From a virus: 44,735 nucleotides of DNA. The DNA lies in the IMG/VR virus record IMGVR_UViG_3300035698_014381, positions 1 to 44,735 of that record; one strand, 5' to 3'. Of the stretch, positions 1,583 to 30,700 are shown in pieces. Position numbers and translations under genes: made by a program. A model generated the notes under the pieces. That model saw only the letters and a list, made by a program, of their open reading frames with translations. It was not told the origin of the DNA and ran no database searches. The number at the start of each line of letters is the position of its first letter. Within the stretch, counting starts at the first letter, position 1.

Positions 1583-3505
1583 ATGACCCCATGGTGGACG
1601 ATCGACACGCTCCCGTGCGTGACGCGACTGCCCCGTGTGATCGCGCTCGATTGCGAGACGCGCGATCCGCTGATCAAAACGCACGGCCCCGGCTGGCCGT
1701 TTGTGCCGGTCATGGGCGACGACGCAGGCTACGTGTTCATGGTATCGTTGGCGTGGCGGGGCGACGAGGGCCGACTGACATCGGGCGTCCTGCATTGGCG
1801 CGACGAAGACGGCGATCATGTGCCCGAGGCGTTTGCGACCCGTCGCTGGCTGCGCGATGCGTTGCGGCACGCGGGCACCACATGGGTGCTGTTCAATGCC
1901 CCGTACGATCTCGGCTGGTTGCGTGCCGAGGGCATGCCGCTTCCGACGCGTCACCTTGACGCGCATGTGATGGCGGCGCTGGTGGACGAGAAGCGCCGCA
2001 GCTATTCGCTCAATGCGTTGGCAGCGGATTGGCTGGGACCGCACGCATGCAAAGACGAGACGGCGCTGCAGGAATGGGCCACGGCGCACAAGGCGCACCC
2101 CAAGTCCGACATGTGGCGTGCGCCGCATGACATCGTCGCGGCGTACGCCGCGCATGATGCCCTTCTCACGTATCAGCTGTATCGCGCGCTCTCCGCACGC
2201 ACGTTGCAGGAAACAACGCAGCCGCTGCGCGACGCCGAACATCAAATGCAGCGCGTGCTGCTCGATGTGCGCGCGTTGGGCATTCGGGTCGATCTCGATC
2301 GCGCCGCCGACACCGAGCGCCGCATGACGCGCGAACGTGATGCACTGGTCGCCCAAGCGTTGCGCGGATTGCGCCCGTCCGCAGCGCGCGACATGGCGGG
2401 GCTGTTTACCGAACACGGCATCGCGATGGACCGCACGGCGACCGGCGAACCAAGCATCACCAAAGCGTGGCTGAAGACGGTGGATCACGACCTTGCCCGC
2501 GCTTTGTTGCGCGTGCGCTGGCTGGATAAGATGTGCTCCACGTACCTGCGTCCGATGGCACGCCTGTCTGTCGGAGGGCGGGTGCATGGGCAACTGCATG
2601 GACTGCGAAGCGATGAGGGCGGGACCGTATCGGGACGCTTGTCGTCGTCCACACCGAACGTGCAAAACCAAAGTGCCAAGGCCGACCCGGAAGGGTTGAT
2701 CAGAGGCTGCTACTTGCCGGAAGAGGGCGCGCTCTGGACGGCATCCGATTACGCCGGACAAGAGGCACGCCTTGCGGCCCACGAAGCGTACCGGCGACGG
2801 TGCCGAGGCGCGACGACCTTGGTGCGCGCGTACCGGCGCGATCCGATGCTCGATCTATACAAGGTGCTCATGGACCCGGTGAACAAGATTCTCGACACCG
2901 AGCATGCGATCGTCCGCGATCAGTCCAAAGTCTTGTTCCTCGCCGCGCTGTACGGCATGGGCACATCGCTCGCGTCGAAGATGCTCAAGGTGTCACCCGC
3001 TGATGGCGCACGCATTCTCGCCGCGTTCAAAGACGGCGCGTCGTGGCTGTCGTCGTTGTTGGCGTCGGTAGGGACAGAGGCCCGTGAATCCGGGTTCGTT
3101 GAAACCACCATCTTGCGCCGGAGGGCGCGGTTTCTAGAAGTGCAAAGCGGCACGGCGGGGGACCAAGGCGTGTGGTACAACCGACACGCCCGAACCGCCT
3201 CATTGCACACCGCCTTGAATCGCGTGGTGCAAGGATCCGCTGCGGATCAAATCAAGCTCGCGATGATTGCGTTACACGCCGATGGGGCGGTGATGCACGC
3301 GTCGGTGCATGACGAGATCGATACGAGTACCACGTCGCAAGCCGAGCGGGTGCGACACGCGCACATCATGTGCGACGTCACCCCACTCGCCGTCCCCGTG
3401 GTGGTGGACATTGAGTACGGCCCCACATGGGGCGCATGCATCAAAGACCCGACGATCATTCGTAGCAGGAAATACTGGACGCCTCCCACTCCCGTGACCC
3501 CATGA
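1583..3505 (+). CDS. polA: Family A DNA polymerase with 3'-5' exonuclease
   Basis: Template-directed DNA polymerase of the Pol I family, presumably the phage replicase. Exonuclease motifs are intact: Exo I D23-x-E25 (LDCET), Exo II FNAPYD with D109, Exo III YAAHD with D192. Polymerase motif A is DYAGQEAR (D389, E394, R396). Motif B is RDQSK (R445, K449) with Y457 of ALYGMG. Motif C is H576-D577-E578. The 640 residues match phage polymerases that lack the 5' nuclease domain. The residue aligned with E. coli Phe762 is Leu453. ATG at 1583 follows the previous stop directly, and the stop overlaps the next start. No primase or helicase is visible in the window. Confidence 0.97.
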   Translation: MTPWWTIDTLPCVTRLPRVIALDCETRDPLIKTHGPGWPFVPVMGDDAGYVFMVSLAWRGDEGRLTSGVLHWRDEDGDHVPEAFATRRWLRDALRHAGTTWVLFNAPYDLGWLRAEGMPLPTRHLDAHVMAALVDEKRRSYSLNALAADWLGPHACKDETALQEWATAHKAHPKSDMWRAPHDIVAAYAAHDALLTYQLYRALSARTLQETTQPLRDAEHQMQRVLLDVRALGIRVDLDRAADTERRMTRERDALVAQALRGLRPSAARDMAGLFTEHGIAMDRTATGEPSITKAWLKTVDHDLARALLRVRWLDKMCSTYLRPMARLSVGGRVHGQLHGLRSDEGGTVSGRLSSSTPNVQNQSAKADPEGLIRGCYLPEEGALWTASDYAGQEARLAAHEAYRRRCRGATTLVRAYRRDPMLDLYKVLMDPVNKILDTEHAIVRDQSKVLFLAALYGMGTSLASKMLKVSPADGARILAAFKDGASWLSSLLASVGTEARESGFVETTILRRRARFLEVQSGTAGDQGVWYNRHARTASLHTALNRVVQGSAADQIKLAMIALHADGAVMHASVHDEIDTSTTSQAERVRHAHIMCDVTPLAVPVVVDIEYGPTWGACIKDPTIIRSRKYWTPPTPVTP

Positions 3506-9922: not shown

Positions 9923-11494
9923 GTGACGCCCTCCCGCGCGCGCATCGTTGCGCCCATTGCAGGCAGTTACCGCGCCCGCATGGAAATCGATGCGGTGCGG
10001 CGGGGCATCACGAAGCAAGCAACCCCCGCGCAGGTACGCGACGTACTTCGCACCCCGTTAGGGTTTATCGACTGGACATCGAAGTACGTCCACGACTTCA
10101 CGTGGTACCGCGTGCATCGCTTCATCGCGCCGTACCTGCAGCGGTTGGTTGATGGCGATCCGCAGCTCCGAAAGCTGATGGTGTTTACGCCGCCGCGCTT
10201 GGGCAAGAGCACTCTCGTGTCGCGCATCTTACCCGCGTACGCGCTGGCGCGCGCGCCGGAAGAGTGGGCGGCGATCGCGAGCTATGGGGCCAAGCTCGCA
10301 CACCGTCTCTCGCGGAGCGCGCGCGGTAACTACAGCCTGTACCGCAAGCTCTCGCAGGACAGTAAGGCGGCAGACGTGTGGGAAACCGGCGACGGGGGCG
10401 GGTGCTGGGCGACCGGCATCGGCGGTCCCGCGTCGGGTTTCGGGTACCGCATCGGCGTTATTGACGATCCGGTCAAGGATTGGGTTGAGGCGAACTCCGA
10501 TGCGATCATCGAGCGGAACATCGATTGGTGGGACGCGGTCTGGACAACGCGCCGCGACGCATCGCGCCGGATGGCGGTGCAAGCAGGCACGTTGCTGACG
10601 ATGACCCGCTACACGATGCGCGACCTCGCGGGGCACGTGCTGAGCACGCAACCCGAAGGATGGACGGTGCTGCACTTGCCGATGATCTACGAGCCGCGTG
10701 ACGAGGTGCTCGCGTACTACGACCTGATGACCAACAACGCCGTGACGCGCGGCAAGCTCACGGTCATCACCGATTGGCGCAGTGATCCCGAGGAGCCGCT
10801 CTGTTCGGAGCGGCTCGATCACGCGACCTATCTTCGCGAGTCCGAGCACAAAGGCCCGCACGTCTCGGCGGCGCTCTATCAGCAGCGTCCCTCACCACGA
10901 TCGGGCGCGATGCTTCCGCGCGACAAGGTGCTGGTGATCCCGGCGAAGCCGTCACGCGATCAGATCGACGCGTCGGTGCGCTACTGGGACAAGGCCGGGA
11001 CTGCTGGCGGGCGGGGAGCCTACACGGCGGGTGTGTTGCTACATCGCATGAAGGATGGTCGCTATGTCGTTGCCGACGTGATTCGAGCGCGTCTCGGCGC
11101 GTTAGAACGTGAGAACCTGATTGAGACGACGGCGATGGTGGACGGCTTGGGTACGGAAATCTGGGTGGAGCAGGAGCCGGGATCGGGCGGTAAGGAAAGT
11201 GCCGAGGCGACGGTGCGCCGGTTGGCGGGCTATAACGTCTTTGCCGAGCGCGTCACGGGCGATAAGACGACGCGCGCTGAGCCGCTGTCTGCTCAATGGC
11301 AGGCGGGGAACATCGCGATCGTCGCCGCTCCGTGGAACGAGGAGTATCTGATCGAGGCGAGCTTTTTTCCGACCGGCACGAAGAAGGATCAAGTAGACGC
11401 AACAAGCGGCGCATTCAACAAAGTGTCCGTGCAGCTGGTGGTTCCTCTCGCACCACCGCAGGGAGGAGATCAGTACAACCCGTACCCGCAATAA
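9923..11494 (+). CDS. terL: Terminase large subunit
   Basis: ATP-driven motor and nuclease that cuts concatemeric DNA and pumps it into the prohead through the portal. Walker A-like motif TPPRLGKST (89-97, K95), Walker B IDDP (D181, D182). C-terminal RNase H-fold nuclease: first acidic residue in YWDKAG (D356), VEQEPGSGGK near 415-425, and KKDQVDA (D489, D492). Length 523 is normal. GTG at 9923 follows the preceding stop by one base but lacks a good ribosome-binding site; ATG at 9980 would remove 19 residues and is possible. Downstream genes are head genes, as expected. Confidence 0.95.
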   Translation: MTPSRARIVAPIAGSYRARMEIDAVRRGITKQATPAQVRDVLRTPLGFIDWTSKYVHDFTWYRVHRFIAPYLQRLVDGDPQLRKLMVFTPPRLGKSTLVSRILPAYALARAPEEWAAIASYGAKLAHRLSRSARGNYSLYRKLSQDSKAADVWETGDGGGCWATGIGGPASGFGYRIGVIDDPVKDWVEANSDAIIERNIDWWDAVWTTRRDASRRMAVQAGTLLTMTRYTMRDLAGHVLSTQPEGWTVLHLPMIYEPRDEVLAYYDLMTNNAVTRGKLTVITDWRSDPEEPLCSERLDHATYLRESEHKGPHVSAALYQQRPSPRSGAMLPRDKVLVIPAKPSRDQIDASVRYWDKAGTAGGRGAYTAGVLLHRMKDGRYVVADVIRARLGALERENLIETTAMVDGLGTEIWVEQEPGSGGKESAEATVRRLAGYNVFAERVTGDKTTRAEPLSAQWQAGNIAIVAAPWNEEYLIEASFFPTGTKKDQVDATSGAFNKVSVQLVVPLAPPQGGDQYNPYPQ

Positions 11495-11495
11495 C

Positions 11496-14102
11496 GTGCC
11501 CATCCTGTTTCGTGACGTGTTCAAGGCCACGCAGATTGAGGTAGCGTCCGGCAACCCGTGGCGCGAAGAAGCGAGCGGGCGTTTCTCATCGCGGGATGAA
11601 AACGCGTCACCGAAGAAATCGGGCGAACTTCTGCAGTCGTTTCGTTCGCAGCGCCCGAAGTCTAAAGAAAATCCACTGGAGAACATCGTACGCAATGAGC
11701 GCGGGGAAGACATTGCGACTATATCACTCCGCGAAAGTGGGCAGGGCTCTATCAAGATTCACAACATCACCTCGTTGCAGCGGGGCGGGGGAAGGGCCGC
11801 TCTTAAAGAGGTGCTTGCACTCGCTGACGCGCATGGAATCACGCTCAAGCTCACCTCGTTTCCAGCTGGTGCGCCGAAGCACGGGGGGGCGGCGTTGTCA
11901 CGAGAGGATCTCAATAGCTGGTACGGTCAAAACGGGTTTATCATCGATGAATCGGACGACGCTGGACGGTATGACCGCATTCGCAAACCCGTGGCGACTC
12001 GCACGTTTCGCGACGTGTTCAAGGCCACGCAGATTGAGGTAGCGTCCGGCAACCCGTGGCGCGAAGAAGCGAGCGGGCGCTTTTCGTCGCCGGATGGTGC
12101 TGCGTCGGCGGATGGACCGGGGGCGTCTGATCGCGACGCGGCGCAGCGCAAAGCGACGTTGGGCAAGAAGCCAACCATGGACGATTTAGTCGAGGGCGGC
12201 TGGTCGAGCCCGAAGTTTGACAGCGAGCGTCCCGACTACAACGAGACGCAAGTGTATGCGTGGATGGATGAGGCCCGCGCGAGCGCGAGCGCGTGGGAGC
12301 GCGCGGCGGAGAAGCTGATCGCGGACGGCACGCTCTCCCCCCAAGACGCCGACGCGATGGGCTACCGAGGGCTGGTCAGCGAGAAGTGGGAAGCGCTCCC
12401 CGAAACACTCTATCACGCCACGACGGATCTCGCGGGGGTCGAACGGACGGGACTCAAGAACGCGGCGGATCTCGATGGGGGACAAGGCAAGACGGGCGGG
12501 TTAGGGGGCGGAGATTCCAACTTCATTTCGTTTACTGATTCGAAGGCGGTCGCCGAGCAAATCGTGACCGCCACGCGCGAGCTGCAGCGGGTGCTGCGCG
12601 GCGAGTTCACGGTAGACGACATGATCGCAACCGCGAAGGCGGGCGATTACTACGACGCGCTCCGTGAGACGTTCCCGGAATGGAAGGACGACGAACATGT
12701 GAACGACGTGCGCTCCGGTACGTACACGATTCGCCCTACCGAGATCTCGCGCGAGTTCCCCGGCGAGCGCTTTGGGTACTTGCCGACGCGCGCCGTGGCG
12801 GAGGCAAAGGGCTGGGTGCCGGTCGAGTTCAATCCCGGTACCGACCTCGTGCGCCGTGCGCGCGTGCCGTTCACGGAGGCGCGTTTCTTGGAGGCGCGCC
12901 GTCAACTCTACGATCGTTTTTCCATCGTACGTGAAACCAAGCAAGGCGTGTTGTGGCCGATGTGGTTCAGTCCGAACCTGCCGCGTATTCGCGACATGGA
13001 CGCCGCCAACATGGGCGTGATTGAAATCAAGCCGACCAAAGGGGCGATGGGCCGACGCCTGAACGCGCTGGGCGAATGGATCACACCGTCCGGCAGGCAC
13101 ATAGCACGGCAACGCACGATCAGCAAGGCGGTGCAAAAATACGATCCCCTGCAGGCACGTGACACATCGGGCGGGCCGACATCGGGGCAGTGGGTTGCGG
13201 AGGGCACCCTCACGACGACAGAGACGGACGTGCTGCCGCGCGGCAAAGATTGGCAATCGACGACGTTGAGAGAACTCGGTGTCCACAGCGTGGACGATAG
13301 CACGTACGATGTGGCACGTCGCAGGGCGATCATCAATCGTCTGCAGAAGGAAGGAACGACGTTCGATGAAGCGCGCTCGCTTATTTCGCACTTGCGGGGC
13401 GACATTGAAGTGGCGGCGCTTGTTGATGCACAGGGTAGCGTGACGTTCGTGAAGGAGGGGAAAGCGAACGAGGTGTCGTTTTCCCCTGAAGAACTGCGTC
13501 TCATGGAAAACAAGACGCTTGTCCACAATCACCCGAACGGCACGCCGCTTTCCGACGCTGACATCCGGGTGGCGCTCTACACGCGCATGGCGAGCATCGA
13601 GTCAATGAGTACCATTGTTCGAGGGCCGACGCGAACCGTGATGGATACGAAGGCGCTTGCGGCGGGCGTGCTCGCCACATTCAAGACGGTGGACGATCTC
13701 TCGTTTGAGAACCCGATGGGAACGCACGTGTCGAGCGCCAACATCTCGGATGTTGCGGGGTCGTTTCTCGACAACGTCAACGAGCGCCTGCTGTTTGCGT
13801 CGCGACCGTCTTTCCTTGCAGAGCTGGACCCCATTCGTGGCTTCCCCGAACGGGACGCGCTGTCGAGTGGTTACTCGGCGTACAAAACGCATCTCGCGAA
13901 CAGGCTGCTGGCTTACGCGTTTGGCAAACCGCGTGCGTACAAAATCGACGGGAGCGCGCCGAAGAGGCCTAAGAAGTGGCCCGCCGAGCTGTCGTTTGAA
14001 AAAATGAAGAGGGGCGCATCTGATGGCACGTATGCGATTGTAGAAGGGTTCCGAAAAGATCAGATGCGCCGCCGTTCTGCCGCAGTCACCAACAACCCCT
14101 GA
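11496..14102 (+). CDS. Multidomain head-region polyprotein: tag, GNAT-like, tag, ART-like, JAB-like
   Basis: An 868-residue protein beginning at GTG 11496. Order: tag VASGNPWRE at V16; GNAT-like domain ~55-165 with an acetyl-CoA loop-like R96-GGGRA and WYGQNGF near the end; second tag at V182; ART-like domain ~230-470 with LYHATTD (H307) and ISFTD (S345); linker; JAB/RadC-like metallopeptidase domain ~580-700 with E638 and HNHPNGTPLSDAD (H677, H679, S686, D689); C-terminal basic tail. Such fusions occur in phage head polyproteins. The enzyme calls rest on motifs only. The position between terminase and portal suggests a virion-associated or injected protein. The GNAT part looks less GC-rich than its surroundings. 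Confidence 0.72.
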   Translation: MPILFRDVFKATQIEVASGNPWREEASGRFSSRDENASPKKSGELLQSFRSQRPKSKENPLENIVRNERGEDIATISLRESGQGSIKIHNITSLQRGGGRAALKEVLALADAHGITLKLTSFPAGAPKHGGAALSREDLNSWYGQNGFIIDESDDAGRYDRIRKPVATRTFRDVFKATQIEVASGNPWREEASGRFSSPDGAASADGPGASDRDAAQRKATLGKKPTMDDLVEGGWSSPKFDSERPDYNETQVYAWMDEARASASAWERAAEKLIADGTLSPQDADAMGYRGLVSEKWEALPETLYHATTDLAGVERTGLKNAADLDGGQGKTGGLGGGDSNFISFTDSKAVAEQIVTATRELQRVLRGEFTVDDMIATAKAGDYYDALRETFPEWKDDEHVNDVRSGTYTIRPTEISREFPGERFGYLPTRAVAEAKGWVPVEFNPGTDLVRRARVPFTEARFLEARRQLYDRFSIVRETKQGVLWPMWFSPNLPRIRDMDAANMGVIEIKPTKGAMGRRLNALGEWITPSGRHIARQRTISKAVQKYDPLQARDTSGGPTSGQWVAEGTLTTTETDVLPRGKDWQSTTLRELGVHSVDDSTYDVARRRAIINRLQKEGTTFDEARSLISHLRGDIEVAALVDAQGSVTFVKEGKANEVSFSPEELRLMENKTLVHNHPNGTPLSDADIRVALYTRMASIESMSTIVRGPTRTVMDTKALAAGVLATFKTVDDLSFENPMGTHVSSANISDVAGSFLDNVNERLLFASRPSFLAELDPIRGFPERDALSSGYSAYKTHLANRLLAYAFGKPRAYKIDGSAPKRPKKWPAELSFEKMKRGASDGTYAIVEGFRKDQMRRRSAAVTNNP
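11514..11581 (+). repeat. 68-bp direct repeat, copy 1
   Basis: Identical to 12012-12079 over 68 bases, 498 bases (166 codons) apart and in frame. It encodes the VASGNPWRE-type tag at the start of the polyprotein. Similarity continues imperfectly for about 18 more bases. Confidence 0.95.
12012..12079 (+). repeat. 68-bp direct repeat, copy 2
   Basis: Second copy of the tag-encoding repeat, located between the GNAT-like and ART-like domains of the same ORF. Perfect identity to the first copy implies a recent duplication or gene conversion. Confidence 0.95.
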
Positions 14103-14106
14103 CACC

Positions 14107-16704
14107 ATGTACACGTACAAGAAGCCCCGCACGCTTACGGGTGCAGACGGTTCGATAACGATGGACGACACGCCGCAGCCGATTTACGGAGAGTCGGTGC
14201 CCGTCACGTTTGCCGAGGTGTACAAGCGCACGACGCAGCTCGATGTAGTGTCCGGGAATCCGTACCGCGAGGACGGATCGTTTCGTTTTGCGTCGCGTGA
14301 TGGCACGTCAAGTCCCGACACGCCACGTACGGTGGAGCGCGCGCGCCGTCGCGCGTCCGTGGTACAGAACCCGGAGTCGAGCCTCATGTTCGCCTCACCG
14401 GAGCAACGCACAGGCCGGTCGATCTACAACGCGCAAAACGATGTTCGCACAGGCCAGCAGCGCGAGTTCCGCGAGGCCCAATCGGAAGTGCTGGGGATGC
14501 TGGGCATTGAGAAGGGCACGACACAGGACGCGCTCGGTCTGTGGAAAGATCCGACCGACGGTGTCGGGGCGGAGGCAAGCACCGCCACGTTTCTCCCGCG
14601 CGGTATTTCACACGACGACGCGACGTTGGCGGCAGTGATGATGGGGCGCTTGACGAATCAAAAAGCCGTGATTGCGTACACGCCCGATAAGGCAGGCAAA
14701 GATTTGCGCGTGACCGTGCAGGGGCTGCAGGGGAAAGCCACAGCGGTGTACAAGCACTTTGCCGATGCCGGTATCGAAAACGTCACCCTCGTGCGCGACG
14801 CGCAGGGATGGACCGCACACTTACTGGGCTTCCATGAATGGGGCGGCGACGACGCACAGCAGAAGATGATGGCGAGCGCCAACACGATTGGCCGTGCGAA
14901 CGGCGCAAGTAAACTCACCTACAGCACAGGGACTGCCAGCTATGTCGGAGCCGAAACGCGAGAAGACGCCAACACCGAGTACGACCGACGCATCAATGCT
15001 GCACAAGCTGGCGGCGTCGCTGGGAATCGAGGACGTGACTTCGACGGACGGTGGGATGCTCTCCTTTCGCAGTGGAAAAACCGTCAACCCGGACGACGTG
15101 TATCACGAGCCGTCACAAAAGAAGACGCCACGCCCCGACTGAGCGCGCTGCTGGACGTAGTCGAGGCGTGGGCCGACGTGGCGGGCGATCGCTTGCTCAA
15201 AAATGCCACGACGTTGTCCGTCGTGAGCGGGAACCCCTACCGCAATGCGGACTCGATGACCTTCGCGTCCGCTGAGGGGGGATCGGGAGCGCTCGCGACG
15301 GCGGAAGGGCGCGCGTTTCTGCGGCAGGGCGTCAACCAACCAGTCGAGCCGGACGCGTTGATTCCCCCGCCGGTGCTGACGATGACGAACAGCGCGTTTG
15401 GGTTGATGAACGAGAAAGCGCGGGCGACGTTTCGCAATCAAGCGGCAGATGCGATCATCGCGGATCGAGCGCTGGCGGGGGCCAACGGCAGGGTCACGCG
15501 GAAGTCGATCGATGCCGTGTTGGGAGGGATGCACGCGTCGCTGCACGACATGACGCCGCAGGACGTGGCGTCCATTTCAAAAAGTGTTCGCGACTACGAA
15601 CAGACGTTTGCCCAAGGGACCAACTTTCGGAACTGGGATGCGGTAGACGAGCTGCGCGTGCTCGGATCGCAAGGGGACGCCGATGCATGGTACATCTCGA
15701 ACGACATCATCAAAGAAGTCTTTCACGAAGCGGCAGACGCGCGCGTGTTTACGCTGCTGCTGGCCGTTACGTCGCAGCGGAATGCTGTGCCGCAGAACAC
15801 TGGCATGGCGCTCAATCTTTTGCTGCAGTACCGCGCGGCAGGACGAAAAATCCCGGAGGGCGGGTTCCTTGGAGGCATGACGGGGGTGATGGAAAACGCG
15901 GCGAACGTTATTCGGGACGGGGCAGTGGCGGGCAGTAAGATCGGGGAGTTCGTGCGGGCGCTAGATGGCGACCCTAATGCCGTGGTTACGGATATCTGGA
16001 TGGCGCGCGCGTTCGGCTTGAAAACCGACACACCGACCGATCGGGAGCACCGTATCATTCAACGTATCGTGACGACGAAGGCCAAGGAGCTGGGCATGAC
16101 GCCGAGTTCTCTGCAGGCGGCGATTTGGAACGGGGCCGCACGGGCAGATTTTGTGCGACGGGGCAGGCCGTTCCCCGAAGAGGACTTCAAGGGCTATGGG
16201 TCGCAGCTCTTGCGTCGCGCGCGGGACACGGACCCCGAGTTCAAACGCACGTCCGGAAGTGGCAAGAACAAGATCACGTTGCCCATTCCCGCTGATCACG
16301 AATACTTCGGCATGTTTTCGCAGGCCTCCGTGCGGACGTGGGAGATCATCGGCGGGAGCACCTACAAGCGCGCGCTGTTGGGGCAGATCCGCGATCGCAT
16401 CCGCACGCGCTCTCGCTTCTACAAGGTGGACCGTGCATCGTCGGCGCTTCGCATGCTGCTGGCGCTCACTGTGCTGGAGGCAGGCCTTGATGAGCGGAAG
16501 TGGCGTCGTCTGGTCAGCACCGCGTTAGGGGGCGTGCCGCCCAATGGCGCGTGGGAATCGGCGTGCCGTGATGCAGAGCCGTTTTTTAATGCGGGCCGAC
16601 AGTTTAACATCGCCGCGCAAACCGAGTCCGTCGCGAAGCGCGCCATCCTCTTCGCAGCCGCGTTCGTGACGGTTTCCGCAAATCACCCGTCTCCCCTGCC
16701 ATGA
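14107..16704 (+). CDS. Multidomain head-region protein with two SGNPYR tags and a glycosylase-like domain; possibly two genes
   Basis: One open frame of 865 codons from ATG 14107. Tag VVSGNPYRE starts at V47 and a second, VVSGNPYR, at V372. Residues ~150-300 form an unrecognised alpha/beta domain. Residues ~525-660 (LLLAVTSQRNAVPQNTGMA, then KIGEFVRALDG and VVTDIWMARAFG) resemble a helical DNA-glycosylase-like fold seen in phage proteins; this is tentative. The stretch 14942-15142 has poor codon use in this frame and encodes another gene in frame 2. A frame-1 restart at CTG 15139 (CTGA) or GTG 15178 would place the second tag about 15-28 residues from a new N-terminus, as in the sister genes. 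I think the ORF may represent two cistrons. Confidence 0.65.
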   Translation: MYTYKKPRTLTGADGSITMDDTPQPIYGESVPVTFAEVYKRTTQLDVVSGNPYREDGSFRFASRDGTSSPDTPRTVERARRRASVVQNPESSLMFASPEQRTGRSIYNAQNDVRTGQQREFREAQSEVLGMLGIEKGTTQDALGLWKDPTDGVGAEASTATFLPRGISHDDATLAAVMMGRLTNQKAVIAYTPDKAGKDLRVTVQGLQGKATAVYKHFADAGIENVTLVRDAQGWTAHLLGFHEWGGDDAQQKMMASANTIGRANGASKLTYSTGTASYVGAETREDANTEYDRRINAAQAGGVAGNRGRDFDGRWDALLSQWKNRQPGRRVSRAVTKEDATPRLSALLDVVEAWADVAGDRLLKNATTLSVVSGNPYRNADSMTFASAEGGSGALATAEGRAFLRQGVNQPVEPDALIPPPVLTMTNSAFGLMNEKARATFRNQAADAIIADRALAGANGRVTRKSIDAVLGGMHASLHDMTPQDVASISKSVRDYEQTFAQGTNFRNWDAVDELRVLGSQGDADAWYISNDIIKEVFHEAADARVFTLLLAVTSQRNAVPQNTGMALNLLLQYRAAGRKIPEGGFLGGMTGVMENAANVIRDGAVAGSKIGEFVRALDGDPNAVVTDIWMARAFGLKTDTPTDREHRIIQRIVTTKAKELGMTPSSLQAAIWNGAARADFVRRGRPFPEEDFKGYGSQLLRRARDTDPEFKRTSGSGKNKITLPIPADHEYFGMFSQASVRTWEIIGGSTYKRALLGQIRDRIRTRSRFYKVDRASSALRMLLALTVLEAGLDERKWRRLVSTALGGVPPNGAWESACRDAEPFFNAGRQFNIAAQTESVAKRAILFAAAFVTVSANHPSPLP
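14942..15142 (+). CDS. Nested 66-aa gene in an alternative frame
   Basis: ATG at 14942 has AGGGA 9 bases upstream and opens a 66-codon frame inside the larger ORF. Third-position GC counted by hand is about 74 percent in this frame against about 48 percent in the large ORF's frame over the same bases, so this looks like the translated frame. The product is hydrophilic: a Lys/Pro/Thr-rich start (MSEPKREKTPTP), a short helix (MLHKLAASLGIED) and a Lys/Pro-rich end. Its TGA lies in CTGA, with CTG in the frame of the downstream tagged domain. Function unknown. Confidence 0.6.
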   Translation: MSEPKREKTPTPSTTDASMLHKLAASLGIEDVTSTDGGMLSFRSGKTVNPDDVYHEPSQKKTPRPD

Positions 16705-17870
16705 AATACACTACGTTCCGCCGCGCGCTGGCCGCTGTGTTGAAAGGGACGACGACAATGCCCGTCGTTTCGGGGAACCCGTACCGTGACGGGGCCAGTA
16801 TGCGCTTCGCGTCGCGTGACGGGAGCGCGGGCGGCGCACCGGAAGCGAAAGACGCGGGCGGCGCACTTATGCGCCGGTCTGACCCCGTGCCGAATGCCAG
16901 CACCAAACAGCACATAGACCGGCGCTCGCAATCGGCATGGAATCGCGAGGGGGCGGAGGGGGTGATTCGCGAGCAAGCGGGGCGCGTCGATCAGAAGGCG
17001 GCGCTTGCCGAGCTGGCCGCAATGCGCGATGTCAAGCACCCGACGCGTGACAAGTCGATGAACGACATGGTCGAGCACGCGAAGACGCTTGATCAAAACG
17101 CGATCGAGTTAGGGCTCACGCCCGCGCAGCTGGAGAACGCTAACAACTTGGCATTCTCGCACATGCAGAAGTTCGGCAAAGACGCCGCCTACGATCGCCG
17201 CGCGGTGCTGGTGATCGGCCTCTCGGGCGCGGGCAAGACTAGCGTGATCAACGCCTTTCAGCGCGATTTGAACGGAGTCGAAATCGACTCCGATCACTTC
17301 AAAAAACAGCTTAAAGGATTCAACAACGGGCTTGGATCGATGGAGGTGCATGCGGAATCGTCCGTCTCGGCCAAGGCCGCGATGGCGATGGGCATCGAGT
17401 CGGGCGTCAACATGATCCTGCCGAAAGTGGGTGGCATGGATAGTGAAAAGTCTATCCGTCGTGAAATCGACAAGTTGAAGAAGGCGGGCTACGCCGTCGA
17501 AGTGCATCTCGTGCAGCTCGATCACACCGAGTCGATGAAGCGCGTCGTGTCGCGCTTCATCGGCACGAAAGAGAGTCCGGGGGAGCAGCTGGTGCCGGTG
17601 GACTACGTCGAAGCGATGAAGGGCAAGGAACCGATTCGCTTGATGGAAAAACTTGTCCGAGACGGGACACTTGATGGATCATCGTGGTCTATCCTGCACA
17701 ACAATGTCGGACGCGGAGAGCCGTATGGAATCATTGCCCACAAAGGAAGCAACTCCCTCCTTGACAAAGTATTCGAAGGAAAATCGCCCAGCGATGTCGT
17801 ACGCGCAGCGAATCGAACTCGACAGCGCAAACCTGCAAGTCGCCCTCGGCAGTCCCCTCGCCGAGGTTGA
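16701..17870 (+). CDS. Tagged zeta-toxin-like P-loop kinase, 389 aa
   Basis: Begins in ATGA at 16701. An N-terminal helix-like stretch and tag VVSGNPYRD (V22-D30) precede a disordered linker and, from ~165, a P-loop kinase domain: Walker A GLSGAGKT (173-180, K179), EIDSDHF (D196, D198), then HAESSVSAKAAMAMGIESGVN and QLDHTESMKRVVSRF. This order matches zeta toxins, which phosphorylate UDP-N-acetylglucosamine and block wall synthesis. Zeta genes normally pair with an epsilon antitoxin, and none is recognisable here. The C-terminal ~25 residues are Arg/Pro-rich where the next gene overlaps. I infer a packaged effector. Confidence 0.72.
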   Translation: MKYTTFRRALAAVLKGTTTMPVVSGNPYRDGASMRFASRDGSAGGAPEAKDAGGALMRRSDPVPNASTKQHIDRRSQSAWNREGAEGVIREQAGRVDQKAALAELAAMRDVKHPTRDKSMNDMVEHAKTLDQNAIELGLTPAQLENANNLAFSHMQKFGKDAAYDRRAVLVIGLSGAGKTSVINAFQRDLNGVEIDSDHFKKQLKGFNNGLGSMEVHAESSVSAKAAMAMGIESGVNMILPKVGGMDSEKSIRREIDKLKKAGYAVEVHLVQLDHTESMKRVVSRFIGTKESPGEQLVPVDYVEAMKGKEPIRLMEKLVRDGTLDGSSWSILHNNVGRGEPYGIIAHKGSNSLLDKVFEGKSPSDVVRAANRTRQRKPASRPRQSPRRG

Positions 17871-18015: not shown

Positions 18016-19542
18016 GTGACTGACGCGCTGAGTGGAGACATTGATGCCGGAACACCATCGCCCGCGAAACTCGCGCAGGAGATTGGTGCGTCCGGGCTGC
18101 TCGGCGCGTCGGCGGGACAGGGCTACATCTACGACGAGCGCTTGCCCGAACTGCAAGGGATCGCGGGACGCCGCACGCTGCGGAAGTTGGGCGAAGACCC
18201 GGTCGTGTGGGCGTCGCTGTACGCGATTGAGCAACTGGTGCGGCACGTTGCATGGCGCGTCGAACCCAACGCGGACGCCCCTGAGTCCCATGGCGAGCGG
18301 GGCGTGAGCTTTGTCGAGGGCGTGTTGTTCAAAGACATGGATGTACCGTTTGCGGAAGTCGTGAGCGACGCCGTCTCGATGCTCGCGTTCGGATTTTCGA
18401 TTCAAGAGATCGTGTTCAAAAAGCGGAAGGGGCCGAACACGAACTCCTCAAAATCGAGTCTGTATGACGATGAGCATTACGGGGTGGCACGTCTTGCGTC
18501 GCGCAATCAGGACACGATCCAGCGCTGGATTTATGGGCCAGAAGCCGATCGTCTCATCGGCATCGAGCAACTTGTCCCGGATGGAATGACCGGCAGCGTG
18601 CTTATCCCCTACTGGAAAACGCTCCACTACCGCACGACGGCCAGCCGTAACAACCCGGAAGGGCGGGCGCTCACGCGTGGCGCGTATCGGTCGTGGGTGC
18701 GGAAGCAGGAGCTGGAGCACGCCGAGGGACGCATCATGTCACGCGCGGCGGGCATTGTCGAGATCCGCATCCCGGCGCGGTTTCTTGCCGCAGGCGCGTC
18801 GCCCGAAGAAGCGGCGGTGGCCACCGCGTTTCGCGTTGCGGCGGATCGCATCGCTCAAGAGCGTCAAGGCAGCCTGTTGCTGGCCAGCGATCGCGACGCG
18901 TCAGGCAACTACCTGTACGACATCACCTACAAAACCACGGACTCGCGCCGTGCGACGGAAGTGTCTGCGGCCATTGAGCGCTACGATCGTCGCATCGCGA
19001 TGACGATGCTGACCGATTTTTTGCTGCTGGGCCACGAAGCGGTAGGCAGCTTCGCCCTCTCCGATTCGAAGACGAGTGTCTTCGCGCGCAGCATCTCCTC
19101 TCTGCTCAACAACATCGCCGATCAGTTCAACCGCGTGTTGCTCCCGCTGCTGTGGAGCGTGAACGGATTTGACACGAGCGTCATGCCCACGATCGTTGCG
19201 GGCGATTTGGAGGATCGGGACGTGGCCGCTGTTGGGGCCTATCTGTCGAGCTTGGCCGGTGCGGGCATGCCGTTGTTTCCCGATGAGGCGACGGAAAACT
19301 ACCTGCGCGATCTCATAGGCTTGCCGACCAAAAGCGAAACCTCGCAGGCAGCGGCGCAAGTGCAGACCGGCGCAGCAGGGCAAGGAGAGCCTGTGGCAGG
19401 CGGTGAGGCACCTGCGCCGCCCGGACAGGGCCAAGGTCCGCCCACGGGGTTGCAGGCTGCTGGCGGGGCTGCAGCGCGTCCCCCGTGGGCAACGCCCGCG
19501 CCGCCGGATCCGGATGACGACGACGCGGACGACGCCGCGTGA
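18016..19542 (+). CDS. Portal protein, Mu gp29-like (DUF935 type)
   Basis: Dodecameric ring at the capsid vertex through which terminase packages DNA. GTG at 18016 has TAGGAG 6 bases upstream. Family-like features: LYAIEQLVRHVAWRVEP, an acidic/hydrophobic core with VSMLAFGFSIQEIVFK, then the LTRGAYRSWVRKQELE and GIVEIRIP stretches, the expected long helix region, and a C-terminal Gly/Pro/Ala-rich disordered tail (from ~450). Length 508 is typical. It is followed, overlapping by GTGA, by the Mu F-like protein, which is the standard order. Confidence 0.9.
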   Translation: MTDALSGDIDAGTPSPAKLAQEIGASGLLGASAGQGYIYDERLPELQGIAGRRTLRKLGEDPVVWASLYAIEQLVRHVAWRVEPNADAPESHGERGVSFVEGVLFKDMDVPFAEVVSDAVSMLAFGFSIQEIVFKKRKGPNTNSSKSSLYDDEHYGVARLASRNQDTIQRWIYGPEADRLIGIEQLVPDGMTGSVLIPYWKTLHYRTTASRNNPEGRALTRGAYRSWVRKQELEHAEGRIMSRAAGIVEIRIPARFLAAGASPEEAAVATAFRVAADRIAQERQGSLLLASDRDASGNYLYDITYKTTDSRRATEVSAAIERYDRRIAMTMLTDFLLLGHEAVGSFALSDSKTSVFARSISSLLNNIADQFNRVLLPLLWSVNGFDTSVMPTIVAGDLEDRDVAAVGAYLSSLAGAGMPLFPDEATENYLRDLIGLPTKSETSQAAAQVQTGAAGQGEPVAGGEAPAPPGQGQGPPTGLQAAGGAAARPPWATPAPPDPDDDDADDAA

Positions 19543-20642
19543 TTCCCTCATCAAGAAAAGCACGCAGCGTCGGACGCGCGCCGCTCCCGCAATGGGCCGG
19601 TTCCGTCACGAAGGCGCGCGGGGACGATTTGCTCGATGCGTTTGTGCGCCGCGCCAATAAGCTCACGCCGCTGATCCGCTCACAGGTGATGAGATTTTTA
19701 GAAGCGGTGGGCGAGAGCGCGCCCGAGTCGCTATGGGAGCGCGCGCTATCTACGGGAGATATCACGCCGTTGTTTGAATGGGTCTGGAGCAACGTCAGCA
19801 CGCCCTCGGCAACGCTTCGTGTCGAGCTGGGGCGCGTGGTGCGACAGGCGGCACTGCGGGAAGGCGCGTGGATGTTTCCGGTGGGGGCCACGGTCGCGCA
19901 GATTCGCTTCGACACGGCGAACCCGCTCGCGATCACCGTGCTTGAGGACTACGCGTTGCCTTTGGTGCAACAGATGCGCGAGTCGATGAGAAAAACGCTG
20001 GCGCGTGTCGTCGCGGAAGGAATCGGAAAGGGATCACCGCCCGCTGAGATGGCGCGCTTGATGCAGCGCACGCGTGGCTTCTCGCTCACGGAAAACCAGT
20101 GGACGGCGGTGAACAACTATCGCACCGAACTGGAAACAGGGCGATCGTCACGGGCGCGTCAGTTAGTGGACCGCCGCTTTTCGACGACCAACATGTCCCC
20201 CGAAAAAGTGGATCGCATGGTGGGCCGCTACGCCGAGCGCTACCTCCGGTACCGCGCGGAAACGATCGCACGGAGCGAGTCGATTCGCGCGCTCAACACC
20301 GGCAACTGGCTGGCGATGCACTACGCCGCAGAGGATGGATTGGTCGAGCGCGAGGAGATGGTGCGTCGGTGGTTTCCTGCGGCGGACAATGCGACGGGCG
20401 GCGGGCCGTGCCCGATCTGTCTCGACATCGCGATGCGAAACGAAAACGGCGTGGCGTTTGACGAGCCGTTCATACTCAACGACGCGGGCGACACCATCAT
20501 GCAGCCGCCCGCGCATCCCAACTGCCGGTGCGTCGTGTTTTCCCGCCCGCGCATTGTTCCGACCGAGTCGTTCACACTTCCCGAGGCGTACCTACCGCCC
20601 CGACTACGAGGCCGCGCGAGAGCGGTAGGAGCCGTCCCATGA
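19539..20642 (+). CDS. Phage head morphogenesis protein, Mu F / SPP1 gp7-like
   Basis: Minor head protein that assists prohead assembly and is often carried in the virion. Diagnostic C-terminal region: RYRAETIARSESIRALNTGN, then CPICLD with a CxxC pair, and PPAHPNCRCVVF, the conserved HPNCRC motif of this family. The N-terminal ~150 residues are helical. GTG at 19539 overlaps the portal stop, and the stop overlaps the protease start, so head genes are translated as a coupled set. Length 367 is normal. Confidence 0.9.
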   Translation: MIPSSRKARSVGRAPLPQWAGSVTKARGDDLLDAFVRRANKLTPLIRSQVMRFLEAVGESAPESLWERALSTGDITPLFEWVWSNVSTPSATLRVELGRVVRQAALREGAWMFPVGATVAQIRFDTANPLAITVLEDYALPLVQQMRESMRKTLARVVAEGIGKGSPPAEMARLMQRTRGFSLTENQWTAVNNYRTELETGRSSRARQLVDRRFSTTNMSPEKVDRMVGRYAERYLRYRAETIARSESIRALNTGNWLAMHYAAEDGLVEREEMVRRWFPAADNATGGGPCPICLDIAMRNENGVAFDEPFILNDAGDTIMQPPAHPNCRCVVFSRPRIVPTESFTLPEAYLPPRLRGRARAVGAVP

Positions 20643-21205
20643 GCAGTATCTCACCGACCGAAGCGTTACGCCTCGCCGTCTTGGCTATCCGACACGCCGT
20701 GTCACACGGCGACGTGGAAAAACTGGATGCCGATCTCTCGCGTGTGACTGAACGCGTGGCCGTCGCGTCACGCCCACAGACGCGCTCGATCACGAAAGTC
20801 GATCACGCACAGCGGTTGGTGTACGGGTGGGCTCTGGTCACGAAAGATGGCGGCGAAGATGTGCAGGACTTGCAGGACGATCTCGTAGACGGCGAAGAGA
20901 TCCGCGAGACAGCGCACGCGTTTATCAAGGGCGAACGGGTGCTTGGTCGCATGCACACCCTCATGGGCGTCGGGGAGGTGGTCGAATCTGTCGTGTTGAC
21001 GAAAGACATTCAGGACGCGCTTGGAATCGATCTTGGTGTGGAGGGCTGGTTCGTTGGCGTACACGTGACGGACGACGACACGTGGTCGCGCGTACAAAAA
21101 GGAGAGCTACGCATGTTCAGCATTGGGGGAACCGGAGAGCGACACCCTGTCATCGCGAAACGCGCAGGCGGGGCCGTGCTTTTTGCGGAGGCGTATCGTG
21201 CATAA
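20639..21205 (+). CDS. XkdF-like prohead maturation protease (core)
   Basis: Cleaves scaffold and prohead proteins before DNA packaging. Matches the XkdF/S78-like family: ITKVDHAQRLVYGWALVTKDGG, VQDLQDDLVDGEEIRETAHAFI, GRMHTLMGVGEVVES (candidate His106), GWFVGVHVTDDDTWSRVQKGE and MFSIGG (candidate nucleophile Ser161). At 188 residues it lacks the LVDRGAN segment that usually follows in such proteins; that segment is encoded by the next, overlapping gene in another frame. ATG at 20639 overlaps the upstream stop. Confidence 0.87.
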   Translation: MSSISPTEALRLAVLAIRHAVSHGDVEKLDADLSRVTERVAVASRPQTRSITKVDHAQRLVYGWALVTKDGGEDVQDLQDDLVDGEEIRETAHAFIKGERVLGRMHTLMGVGEVVESVVLTKDIQDALGIDLGVEGWFVGVHVTDDDTWSRVQKGELRMFSIGGTGERHPVIAKRAGGAVLFAEAYRA

Positions 21206-22700: not shown

Positions 22701-23726
22701 ATGAGCGCATTCGAAGCCCTGCTGGCGAAGCTGGAAGGCCGCACGCAGACGATTACAAAGAACCAGCCGACCAGCACCGCCGCGCATTTCAACGTCCCGC
22801 TGAACAACATCGTCGTCGCCTACATGCAGTCGGCAAACATGGTCAGCGAGGCGGTGTTCCCCGTGGTGCCGGTCGCCAAGCAGAGCGACCTGTTCTACAA
22901 GTATGACATCGACACGTTCTATCGTGACGATGCCAAGCCACGCGCGCCCGGTACCGAGTCGGCGGGTGGCGGGTTCACGTTCAACATGGACAGTTACAAC
23001 TGTCTTGTCGAAGCGTACCACAAGGACATTGACGAGCAGCTGCGCGCCAATGCCGACAGTGTGCTGCAGCTCGATCGCGCGGCCTCGTTGTTCGTGGCAC
23101 AGAAGATGGTGCTGCGTCGCGAGACGCGTTGGCTAGACACGTTCTTCAAGCAGGGCGTGTGGGCAACCGATTGGGCGGGCGTGGTCGGCGTGCCGACCAC
23201 GAATCAGTTTCAGCGCTTTGATGTCGCCTCGTCGGACCCCCGGTTGGTGGTGGAAGCCACCAAGCTGCAGGTACTGGCCACCACGGGCTACGAACTCAAT
23301 GTCGCCGTGTTTGGCGCGGCAGTGATGTCGCGGCTGGTGACCAATCCGTTCGTGCGCGAGCAGTTCAAGTACACGAGCGCCGAGTCGATCAATGAGGAGA
23401 TGGTCGCGCGGTACCTTGGACTCGACAACGTGTACGTCTCCAAGAGCGTCGTGGCGACCGGCAACGAAGGCGCAGCGGCCACGGTGGGATTGCAGGCAGG
23501 CCGACACGTGCTGTTGGCACATCGCGCCGCTGCCCCGAGTGTGATGGCCCCGTCAGCGGGCTACACGTTCTCGTGGACGGGCTTGACGGGCGGGGGCGTG
23601 AGCACGACGAAGTTCCCGCTGGTGCAGCTGGCCTCCGATCGTGTGGAGTCCCAGATGGCGTATGACTTCAAGGTGGTCGCGCCGCAGCTGGGCGTGTTCC
23701 TCCGCGACGCTGTCTCCGCACCGTGA
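22701..23726 (+). CDS. Major capsid protein
   Basis: Forms the icosahedral shell. Length (341), position after the decoration gene and sequence texture (ANMVSEAVFPVVPVAKQSDLFYKY, then acidic/aromatic strands, GYELNVAVFGAAVMSRLVTNPFVREQFKY, and VESQMAYDFKVVAPQLGVFLRD near the end) fit an HK97-fold phage capsid protein. ATG at 22701 follows GGAG. No obvious N-terminal delta-domain is present, consistent with a separate scaffold gene. The stop overlaps the next start (GTGA). Confidence 0.88.
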   Translation: MSAFEALLAKLEGRTQTITKNQPTSTAAHFNVPLNNIVVAYMQSANMVSEAVFPVVPVAKQSDLFYKYDIDTFYRDDAKPRAPGTESAGGGFTFNMDSYNCLVEAYHKDIDEQLRANADSVLQLDRAASLFVAQKMVLRRETRWLDTFFKQGVWATDWAGVVGVPTTNQFQRFDVASSDPRLVVEATKLQVLATTGYELNVAVFGAAVMSRLVTNPFVREQFKYTSAESINEEMVARYLGLDNVYVSKSVVATGNEGAAATVGLQAGRHVLLAHRAAAPSVMAPSAGYTFSWTGLTGGGVSTTKFPLVQLASDRVESQMAYDFKVVAPQLGVFLRDAVSAP

Positions 23727-25874: not shown

Positions 25875-26795
25875 ATGACGGTGCCGTTTGCTATCAGTAC
25901 CAATGCCACGCTGGGGATCAATCGGGAGACGGTCTGGGGAACCCCGTTGACGACTGGTGCCCGCGCGCTTCGCATCACCGGGTTCAACAACCGCCCCGAG
26001 TTCGGCACGACCGAGTCGGCAGAAATCAACTCGGCGCATCGCGAGACAGCGGATCTTATTCGCACGTCGCAGAAGGGCACCGGCACCATTGAGGCCGAGA
26101 TGATTTTCGACGTGTTCGACACGTTGATGGAATCCGCATTCGGTGGCCTGTTCGCGGCGAACGCGTTGCAGCTGGGCAAGACGCGCGTGTCGTACTCGCT
26201 GCAGGAACACTATACCGATCTCGTGAACGCGTTCATCGTGTACCGTGGCTGTATCACGAACTCTATGAGCGTGGCCGTGACGGTGGGGCAGCCGATGCGA
26301 ACGTCGTTTGGCTTCACGTCGCGCGCTCCCACGACGGAAGTGGCGACCATGATCGGGCCGGTGGCGGCGGCGAACACCAACGTCGTGATGAACCCGCTGC
26401 AGCACATTTCGTTGGTGCAGCAGGGCGGCTTGTCGATCGACGGGTGTCAGGCGTTCGAGTTTCAGATTCAGAACGAACTGGCCGAAATCCCGTCGTTGAC
26501 GAGTGCGGATCTCGTGTCCATGCTGCTAGGGCGCGTCATGGTCACCGGATCGTTTGCCGTGTTCAAGCAGTCCAATGTGCGATTCGCGCAGGCGCTCACC
26601 AACGCCCCGACCACGCTCGCGCTCACCGTTGGAGAAGGTACGCGCACGTACGCGTTCACGATGCCGAACGTCCGCATTCAGTCCGTCGAATCGGGCGCGA
26701 GCGGTTCGAATCCGCTGCTGGAGCGGTTTTCGTTTACGGCGCTGTACAACGCCGCCAACAGTTCGCTGCGCGTCGTGCGGGGAACGGGCGCATAA
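25875..26795 (+). CDS. Major tail tube protein, 306 aa
   Basis: Forms the hexameric rings of the tail tube. Begins with ISTNATLGINRETVWGTPLT, a pattern typical of tail tube proteins of this type, and has the expected beta-rich core (TGTIEAEMIFDVFDTLMES, SVAVTVGQPMRTSFGFTSRAP) and a long second half (FSFTALYN near the end). ATG at 25875 follows ACAGGAG. The gene ends inside a hairpin that begins a structured 90-base leader of the chaperone gene. Confidence 0.88.
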   Translation: MTVPFAISTNATLGINRETVWGTPLTTGARALRITGFNNRPEFGTTESAEINSAHRETADLIRTSQKGTGTIEAEMIFDVFDTLMESAFGGLFAANALQLGKTRVSYSLQEHYTDLVNAFIVYRGCITNSMSVAVTVGQPMRTSFGFTSRAPTTEVATMIGPVAAANTNVVMNPLQHISLVQQGGLSIDGCQAFEFQIQNELAEIPSLTSADLVSMLLGRVMVTGSFAVFKQSNVRFAQALTNAPTTLALTVGEGTRTYAFTMPNVRIQSVESGASGSNPLLERFSFTALYNAANSSLRVVRGTGA

Positions 26796-27755: not shown

Positions 27756-30700
27756 ATGGACATCGCAGAACTCGCGCTCCGGGTTGATACGTCAGACCTT
27801 CCGCGCGCGCAGACGGAGTTTTCCCGCATGCGTGAGTCAACCGTGCGCTCGGCCAACGACATGGAAGACGCGATGTCGAAGCTGGAAGGGACGATGAAGG
27901 CCGCGCTGCGATTTTTCGGGATCTATCAGTTCTCGGCGTGGATCAAGGGGAGCGCGGACATGGCCGCGAAGTACGACACGCTCGGCGTCGTGATGACACG
28001 TGTGGGCAAGCAAGCCGGGTACACGGACGCCGCGCTCACCGGCATGGCGAAAGGGTTGGGCAATCTCGGGTTCTCGATGATCGAGTCCCGCGATGCGATG
28101 AACAAGCTGCTACGCGCCAAGATCGACTTGACTCGCTCCGAAGAGCTGGCCACCGTGGCACGCGATGCGGCCACGATCGCGCACACCACGGAAGCGCGTG
28201 CGCTGGAGACGCTGATCAACGGCGTGAAAACGGCGAACACGGCCATGCTCAAAAATCTCGGCATCCGTGTGTCGTTTGCGAGCGCATACGACAAACAAGC
28301 GGCGGCGCTCGGCAAGAACACCGAACAGCTCACGGAAGCGGAAAAGACGACGGCGCGTCTCAACGCCGTGATTGCCGAGTCTACGCAGATTGCCGGGGCG
28401 TATGAGGCAAGCCTCGGCACGGCGGCAGGCCAGCTGCAGGCCCTGAGTGGTAACGTGGACGACTTTCGCGTGAAGATTGGGCAGGCCTTTCAACCGGCAT
28501 TTACGGAAGGGGTGCGCGTCTTTGGCGTGACGATCAAAGTGTTGTCCGACAACGTCGGGATTATTCTCCCGTTGATTGCCACGCTGGCCGTGCGGTACGG
28601 CGCGTTGCAGCTGGTGCAGCGCGCCACGTCGGACGGGACGCGCGGGGCGATCGCTTCCTTCAAGTCCATGTTCACGTCCACACGAGATGGCGCGTCAGCC
28701 GCGCGCGACGCCGCGCAGGCGGGGCTGGAAAACGCATCGTCTATGATCGCGCAGCAATCCGAAAGCAAGCGCCTACTGGGCGACATGGTGCTGATGGCCG
28801 ATGGGGCGAGAAACGAAGCGCGTGGGCATCGCGACGCGGCGGCGGCGCAAGTGGAAAGCGCCGGGAGCAGCAAGCAGCGGAAGGCCGCGATCGCCGCGCT
28901 GGACGTGCAGACGCGGCTGCTTACCGAAGCGGAAGCGCAACTCTCGATCATCCGCGCGCAGCAAGGGGTCGTGAATGATATGATGCGCGCGGATCTCATT
29001 GCCGAGGGCGCGGCAAAGGTGCGCCTCACCGCGACCACATTGGCCCTCGCCGAGGCGCAGCGCGTTGCCGCGATGGCGATGACGGGGCTGCGCGCAGGCG
29101 CGAGCAAGCTGCTGGCCGCGTTTGGCGGGCCGTGGATGGTCGCGATCGCCGCCGCGACGTTTGTTGTTTCAAAGCTGGCTGCCGCGCACAACGACGCGAA
29201 GCGCGCGCTAAGTGAGCACAAAGAAGCGATTGAAACAAATCTCGTGGCGATGGATGCCGCGTACGTGCGATCGAAGGCGACCCAAGACGCATGGCGCTCC
29301 GGATTGCGCGGGAGCGACGACGCGCTCACCAAGACGGCGCTGGCATCGCGCGCGTACACGCGCGGCATTGAGGATCTGGAAGCGTCCACAGAAACCGCAC
29401 GGCAACAAGTGCTCAACATGTGGAACTCTGTCACATCGCTGGGGGCAGGGCTCAACCTGTTGAAAAAGGACAGCATCACGTTCGCGCGTGAGATGGACAC
29501 GCTAGATGACAAGTTCACGCAGGGCCGCATCTCGCTCAACACGTATTACAGCGAGCTGGATCGGTTGTCCGTCAAGTTCCCGGCGTTCCGCGAGGAGATT
29601 CGGGGCGTGCAAGGCGCGCTCTCGTTTCTCGATCTCACGCAGAAAAAAAATGCGGAGTCCCTGAGCGCGTTGAAGCAACCGCTGCTCACGACGATCGGAT
29701 TTTTTGAACGCTACCGCACGGCGGCGCAGGAGGCGGCGGACGCGCAGGCGTCGCTGCTCGGCAAGGGGGTTCCCGACAAAGTGGATCTTGGACAGTTCGG
29801 GCGCGACGCGGAAGAAGAGAACACGTACCTGCAAATGCGGCAGGGCGCGAGCGGGAGCGTGGAGCAGCTCAAAAGTATCGAAGATGTCATCACGGGAATG
29901 AAGGCGGCAAAATCGGCGGTGCGTGAACTCGCGCAAGCGCAGGAGACGCTCGGTGTGGCCGTTGGAAAAACCGGCGACCAGATGCGCGCCGAGCTGGAAA
30001 CGCTTGGGAAAAAAGAAGCCGCGCAGGCGATCAGCATCATGCGAATCGATCAAGTCGGGAGCGCCCAACAACAGGCGGCGGCAAAAGAGTTGGCGGCACA
30101 ACGGGCGGGGCTTGAGCAGGGCGTTCTCGTGTACGACGCGGCGGTCAAGTTGGCGGGACAAAACACCACGCTGACCCGCACCGTAGAAAAGCAGGCCGAA
30201 GCACAGGGGAAGGCAACCGCCGCGCTGAAAGAAGGTACGAAAGCGTTTCAGCAGATGGGCAGCGATGCGGAAATAAAAAAGATGCCGGAATACTTGCGGG
30301 ACATTGAGGCATCGTACCGCAGCACGAACCTCGCGATTGATGACCTCGCAAAAAGTCTCGGGGCCACGCATCCGCTCATCGCGCAAATGCGCGGAGAAGC
30401 GGCGCGCGTCAGAGCGGAACGCACCGACGATGCAGTCGCCACCAAATCGCTTGACGACAGCGTGCAGCGCGCGACCTTGTTGCGCGATCGCTACGCGGTG
30501 CTCACGCTCGCCATGCTGCAGTACCGCAAGGCGAACAAGGATGCTGCTGCGGATGTCCTGAAACTGCGGGAAGGGGAAATGCGCCTCGCGTACGATCGCG
30601 AGTCGCAAGCGATGGCACGCGAAGAGCGCGTGCTTCGGTTGACGCGCGTGGCATCGACGGGGACGGTCAACGAAATCAAAGGCGCGTCCAATGAAGCGGG

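Follow-up and report, generated by a model that had tools for sequence, protein, structure and literature searches.

How does a tailed phage select the enzymes that travel in its head? To our knowledge, the choice of proteins for head loading is understood in very few phages (T4 and P1). The question is raised by a 44,735-base virus record, IMGVR_UViG_3300035698_014381 (positions 1 to 44,735; hereafter, the window), in which three open reading frames (ORFs) carry five copies of a short peptide, V(V/A)SGNP(Y/W)R, on enzyme-like domains. These copies are members of an NPxxDxxTGRF tag family common to dozens of phages. The tag probably marks proteins for loading into, or processing inside, the phage head before injection, because the window peptide is a divergent form of a tag that stands on enzymes beside head genes in dozens of unrelated phages.

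The five copies of the original prediction were borne out at every residue given when the ORFs were checked. ORF1 (11496-14102) carries the tag at V16 and V182 (SGNP codons starting at 11547 and 12045), ORF2 (14107-16704) at V47 and V372 (14251 and 15226), and ORF3 (16701-17870) at V22 (16770). F(A/S)S, which had been claimed for most copies, follows SGNP(Y/W)R in five of five, always at a spacing of six residues. As had also been claimed, the first tag of each ORF lies near the N-terminus (residues 18, 49, and 24), the other copies being internal. A degenerate core DNA pattern matches four of the five copies against 0.00 expected in dinucleotide shuffles, so that a chance origin is rejected; the copy missed has no Arg ahead of its Phe. 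A recent DNA duplication of ~90 bp, confined to leader plus tag, produced copies 1 and 2, while the other pairs have 8-12 of 16 core residues in common and 5-7 synonymous codon differences. Because residues are kept across copies with different codons, selection appears to act on the peptide and not on the DNA, and a purely DNA-level repeat is likewise rejected.

The exact degenerate pattern V[VA]SGNP[YWF]R...F[AS] recovered no IMG/VR contig besides the window; the SGNP(Y/W)R variant is apparently confined to this phage, whereas a broader motif is found elsewhere. The latter, NP[aromatic]x-D-xx-TG-x-F, was derived from the window motif and from similar phage linkers and matched 35 viral stretches (12 for a shorter-loop version), many of the contigs holding several copies each. 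A position-specific scoring matrix (PSSM) of 16 columns was then built from 51 tags of other sequences, with no window sequence included. Its consensus is K-x-N-P-Y-[HR]-D-x-x-T-G-R-F-[TS]-[ST]-G, with the conserved N, P, D, G, and F at ~3-5 bits each. The window copies occupy ranks 1-5 of 66,623 six-frame windows (22.0, 17.3, 16.0, 13.3, and 10.7; the next scores -1.7), and an ungapped alignment pairs NPWREEASGRFSS with NPYHDPKTGRFTS.

Across all loci fetched (cited below by L numbers), ~120 non-redundant tags were found on ~55 contigs, nearly all viral, of which 25 hold two or more; since pattern-selected and portal-selected loci are pooled, this count is not a prevalence estimate. The reversed-ORF control gave 2 matches in 1.84 million windows, and the motif is present in both bacterial and archaeal viruses. 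The original prediction had expected the peptide to recur beside unrelated domains elsewhere, and it does so in dozens of phages; the RDxxGRF-type linkers that it mentioned belong to the same motif family. Searches by tblastn with the tag peptide returned few, weak matches. Arthrobacter phage Atuin gp155 (RDPKTGRF twice, at the C-terminus) was left out of the count, and PSSM matches in L018 (8.4) and at L157:9996 (10.5) look like false positives.

Members of the family cluster with head genes and stand at the N-termini of unrelated effector domains or at the borders between modules. The tag precedes or separates ART, zeta-toxin, JAB, GNAT, zincin, RNA-polymerase, and DUF7178 domains, and it also joins effector domains to MuF, portal, and prohead-protease proteins. 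Pfam matches in tagged ORFs include the ADP-ribosyltransferase exoenzyme (L119, L125, and L094), ART-PolyVal (L103), zeta toxin (L119), S78 (L114), S78_2 (L103, L119, and L125), MuF (L019, L027, L030, and L108), and DUF7178 (L105, where it stands before a tag), with a T7-type RNA polymerase match just under cut-off in L134. By motif, HExxH zincins were recognized in L019, L020, L027, and L120, and JAB and GNAT-like ORFs in tandem in L147, an Oscillospiraceae contig. Homologues of the window ART, JAB, and zeta domains lie in or beside tagged ORFs of a set that was fetched by the tag, regardless of those domains.

The unit has a regular order: a leader of ~10-30 residues, often amphipathic, the tag, a Gly/Ser/Ala-rich stretch, and the enzyme. 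Of 124 tags, 72 lie at most 60 residues from the first possible start versus 29 expected if uniform, and Gly makes up 25% of the 15 residues after the tag versus 9.6% overall. Leader amphipathicity is slightly above that of shuffles (pooled z 4, a small effect per leader). AlphaFold, applied to 47 aligned tags, models at low confidence the leader as a helix and the tag as a very small hairpin. L114, with nine tags over six ORFs, including a polyprotein with three internal tags, resembles the window most closely. In L120, seven ORFs between portal and MuF all carry a tag near the start, of subtype NPYHDPKTGRFTTG or NPCHEPAGSPKGGQFCS; the second, a PAGSPxGGQF variant, was assigned to the family by eye.

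Other variants were seen in passing. The NPCHEPAGSPKGGQFCS tag stands on zincin, JAB, and ART-like ORFs in L120 (4510-8699) and at L109:1530-2600, and L020 and L114 hold further variants, FDPDQPRDDQGRW and FDANQPRAPRGSTIGGQW. L110 and L117 contain arrays of small ORFs, each starting YPxYLIHFNKNHSxKNGQFTSGDGDGDG..., an apparent third subtype followed by an Asp/Gly repeat.

The link of the tag to head genes was reached by two independent selections, which agree. Eighty loci were picked solely by a related portal (33-42% identity), and seven of these, six of them distinct, carry the tag (L019, L020, L027, L030, L047/L054, and L049), in every case on the same strand as the portal and downstream of it. 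A stricter regular expression had found no tag among the same 80 relatives because the pattern was too strict; the PSSM with a one-residue-shorter loop found them. A single-protein portal scan gave none, and neither regular expression nor PSSM detected a tag in the nearest named portal relatives, the Arthrobacter phages Laroye and Ottawa, Microbacterium phage ValentiniPuff, CRP-6, and phiEa21-4. Conversely, on contigs picked solely by the tag, 113 untagged neighbors belong most often to the Pfam families MuF (10), portal, S78 protease, capsid, and TerL. In MW202897 (L156), the tag occurs in a portal C-terminal extension and twice in the prohead protease; in Pro-Nvie1 (L157), an archaeal Nitrososphaera provirus, it occurs in a portal C-terminal extension just before an overlapping RelA/SpoT-like ORF. 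The proposed location between terminase and portal is particular to this phage; elsewhere, most tagged genes follow the portal or lie near MuF and the protease. The original reading, a packaging and/or cleavage signal, is supported in part.

On balance, we lean toward the tag and leader acting as a modular head-targeting signal for injected polyvalent effectors. We infer packaging, a binding partner, ejection, and trimming as follows. The tag and its short, probably helical leader would bind an inner prohead component, perhaps scaffold, portal, MuF, or protease, and so bring the attached GNAT-like, ART, JAB, DUF7178, and zeta enzymes into the capsid. The Gly/Ser-rich linker after most copies would hold the tag apart from the enzyme, the prohead protease may trim the tag as well, and the enzymes would be ejected with the DNA to act on the new host cell. 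Single-domain effectors have only the leader before the tag; each effector would therefore need its own tag, as targeting requires. A mere inter-domain linker is disfavored because all seven L120 ORFs are tagged near the start. A single cargo tag, recognized by a conserved head part and shared by many unrelated tailed viruses, bacterial and archaeal, is possible, although we would not count on it.

Several points weigh against a targeting signal. The packaging of tagged proteins into virions is predicted from sequence; the AlphaFold model of the tag has a mean predicted local distance difference test score (pLDDT) of 63; and most portal relatives, the closest included, are without a tag, many of them being fragments. 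MuF, portal, and protease, too, can have the tag in a C-terminal extension, although these proteins are in the prohead in any case and would need no targeting signal. Lastly, in Sphingomonas genomes the tag is found on toxin-like genes, near which no phage gene was recognized.

The sphingomonad ORFs form a group of their own. On chromosomes L140, L141, L142, L144, L145, L146, L148, L149, and L151, they start RRRAFSIWLRTGRLP...KFNPWHDPETGRFTF, continue into Gly-rich stretches, and end in variable C-termini, resembling polymorphic toxins. L151 (Sphingomonas corticis) has three paralogues; behind each lies a small conserved ORF resembling an immunity gene.

The tags between MuF, portal, or protease and an effector are better explained by processing than by targeting. 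The main alternative is that the tag is chiefly a processing element, in or beside which the prohead protease cuts to free effectors from polyproteins or from a portal, MuF, or protease carrier, and to strip short leaders from single-domain effectors. Such cutting would account for N-terminal, inter-domain, and carrier-effector positions together. Carriers of this kind are MuF-tag-ART-like (L019), MuF-tag-zincin-tag-x-tag (L027), portal-tag (L139 and L156), S78-tag (L114), and S78_2-tag (L119 and L125), and in SPN3US, N-terminal propeptides are cut from head proteins and a C-terminal one from the protease (PMC10052503). However, a conserved motif of 13-16 residues with a predicted mini-hairpin suggests a binding epitope rather than a site for a prohead protease; the sites known are short, e.g., AxE in SPN3US, and the one motif occurs alongside three different protease families. 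The tagged contigs were searched for S78, S78_2, S77, and, in part, S49. A protease of the first three families was above cut-off on 12 of 21 and absent at that cut-off from nine, a count that decides little because the remaining contigs, like many in the set, include fragments. We regard a mainly processing role as unlikely, albeit deserving of attention, and targeting and processing are compatible and can both hold.

The ORF1 duplication, which spans exactly leader plus tag, and the shuffling of tag-linked modules among phages would suit a structural spacer or recombination joint, in which the mini-hairpin and Gly-rich linker aid effector-module shuffling with no specific partner. Yet the information content of the five conserved residues, their retention while codons diverged, and the maintenance of the motif in bacterial and archaeal viruses all speak against this, as does the tag at the N-terminus of single-domain proteins, where a spacer is not needed; we consider it improbable. 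Least credible, and hardly to be expected, is a role at ejection, in which the tag keeps effectors near portal and MuF and sets when or whether they exit via the tail: tagged genes do adjoin those for portal and MuF, with occasional fusions, but such a role is hard to tell from targeting by sequence.

The targeting signal favored here can be compared with known systems. The window effectors fit the class of phage polyvalent proteins, multi-domain proteins that combine ART, GNAT, JAB (RadC), metallopeptidase, ParB-like, and MuF domains, are encoded near head genes, and for which packaging and injection are predicted (Iyer et al. 2017, PMC5512222). Likewise, ORF1 joins unrelated ART-like and JAB domains (and a weak GNAT), ORF2 joins an unknown domain to DUF7178, and the ORFs lie among virion genes, between TerL and portal and upstream of MuF, protease, and capsid. 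In contrast to polyvalent proteins, the window peptide marks each module and is also present on single-domain ORFs; no linker or recurrent short tag was found in the portion of that paper's text covered. MuF polymorphic toxins deliver variable toxin or enzyme domains with head proteins (Jamet et al. 2017, PMC5576092; Bxa, PMC11699363). Several tagged proteins elsewhere are similarly MuF-tag-enzyme, whereas in the window MuF is a separate untagged ORF and the effectors are separate tagged ORFs; the covered text of PMC5576092 yielded no description of a linker or tag.

In P1, the first 30 residues of DarB suffice to carry a reporter into the capsid, and the capsid-targeting sequence (CTS) of T4 IPIII is likewise sufficient (PMC9024508). 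In T4, the prohead protease removes the signal. The first tags of the window are likewise N-terminal on cargo-like proteins. In contrast to the P1 Dar N-termini, for which the authors report no consensus (PMC9024508), and to the T4 CTS, the tag has a cross-phage consensus, follows a leader, and repeats inside polyproteins. The prohead propeptides of SPN3US and T4 are, as with the tag, N-terminal on cargo and C-terminal on the protease (PMC10052503), but their sequences are not the tag motif, and cleavage at the tag is itself conjectural. The nearest conceptual parallel is provided by the MIX/FIX/RIX markers of type VI secretion, in which a short N-terminal region is common to otherwise unrelated effectors (PMC10435454). 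The delivery machine differs, and the phage peptide is known here, and its role as a cargo tag with cross-phage consensus proposed, from sequence alone.

The features of the window are collected in the table. The domain calls of the original prediction fared unevenly. The zeta-like call is confirmed; the domain has the P-loop GLSGAGKT, is the one domain recognized in ORF3, and has homologues in tagged ORFs of L125 (5e-14) and L119 (1.5e-11). The ART-like call is supported by homologues on tag-bearing contigs (L120 and relatives), and the JAB-like call by a JAMM motif invariant in ORF1 and five relatives, with a homologue in a tagged ORF (E 7e-10). The GNAT-like call is tentative; its match is the L106 GNAT, which itself reaches Acetyltransf_7 at 1.3e-4, under the Pfam cut-off. 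The glycosylase-like call in ORF2 was not upheld, DUF7178, a family of unknown function, being the sole match there, and the predicted prohead protease downstream is indeed present. The start codon of ORF3 overlaps the stop of ORF2. Sequence searches of the PDB with the JAB region, ORF3, and the consensus tag gave no relative.

Table. Coordinates of the tagged ORFs, their domains, and the neighboring head genes in the window.
Feature	Position	Strand	Basis or remark
TerL, terminase large subunit	9923..11494	+	recognized from sequence and similarity to TerL ORF of L002
ORF1, 868-residue polyprotein	11496..14102	+	leader-tag, GNAT-like, leader-tag, ART-like, JAB
Leader plus tag copy 1 (FRDVFKATQIEVASGNPWREEASGRFSSR)	11502..11594	+	DNA-level duplicate of 12000-12092
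GNAT-like domain, weak	11673..11990	+	phmmer 1e-3 to tagged GNAT in L106
Leader plus tag copy 2, internal, V182	12000..12092	+	
ART-like domain (LYHATT..GL..GLGGGDSNFISFT)	12111..13160	+	homologue in L120 beside tagged ORFs, E 3e-16
JAB/JAMM domain	13293..13770	+	complete E..HxHP..SxxD signature; homologues in tagged ORFs
ORF2, 865-residue polyprotein	14107..16704	+	leader-tag, unknown domain, leader-tag, DUF7178
Leader plus tag copy 3 (VYKRTTQLDVVSGNPYREDGSFRFASR and residues before)	14218..14298	+	
Leader plus tag copy 4, internal, V372 (SGNPYRNADSMTFASA)	15187..15273	+	
DUF7178 domain	15685..16128	+	PF23802, E 2.4e-7
ORF3, 389 residues	16701..17870	+	leader-tag, zeta-toxin/AAA_33 P-loop kinase-like domain
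Leader plus tag copy 5 (TTFRRALAAVLKGTTTMPVVSGNPYRDGASMRFASR)	16710..16817	+	
Zeta-toxin domain	17199..17615	+	PF06414, 5.8e-15
Portal, Mu-type	18016..19542	+	PF06074, 5.8e-21
MuF minor head protein, untagged	19539..20642	+	PF04233, 1.5e-7
S78_2/XkdF-like prohead protease, untagged, exact start uncertain	20528..21205	+	PF14550, 3.4e-22
Capsid	22701-23726		phrog_1005

Elsewhere in the window, no tag is present on the DNA polymerase A with 3'-5' exonuclease (1583-3505), the tail tube (Phage_tube_2, 25875-26795), a probable tape measure with a weak match (27756-33512), or an M15 peptidase, probably the endolysin (40850-41881). A MuF protein fused to a JAB/JAMM domain related to that of the window occurs at L062:3634-5124, in a portal-relative phage with no tag detected.

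In the open full-text literature, no paper was found that contains the tag peptide strings (subscription papers and preprints lay outside this search), and no description of a shared head-loading signal was found in the literature searched. A recognizable tag makes the selection of head cargo directly testable. It also provides a sequence handle for injected effectors (ART, JAB, zeta, zincin, and others) in uncharacterized viruses and predicts their delivery. If the proposed role is true, tag scans would list injected effectors across viruses, as MIX and RIX do for type VI secretion, and the tag may serve as a general signal for loading foreign cargo into phage heads.

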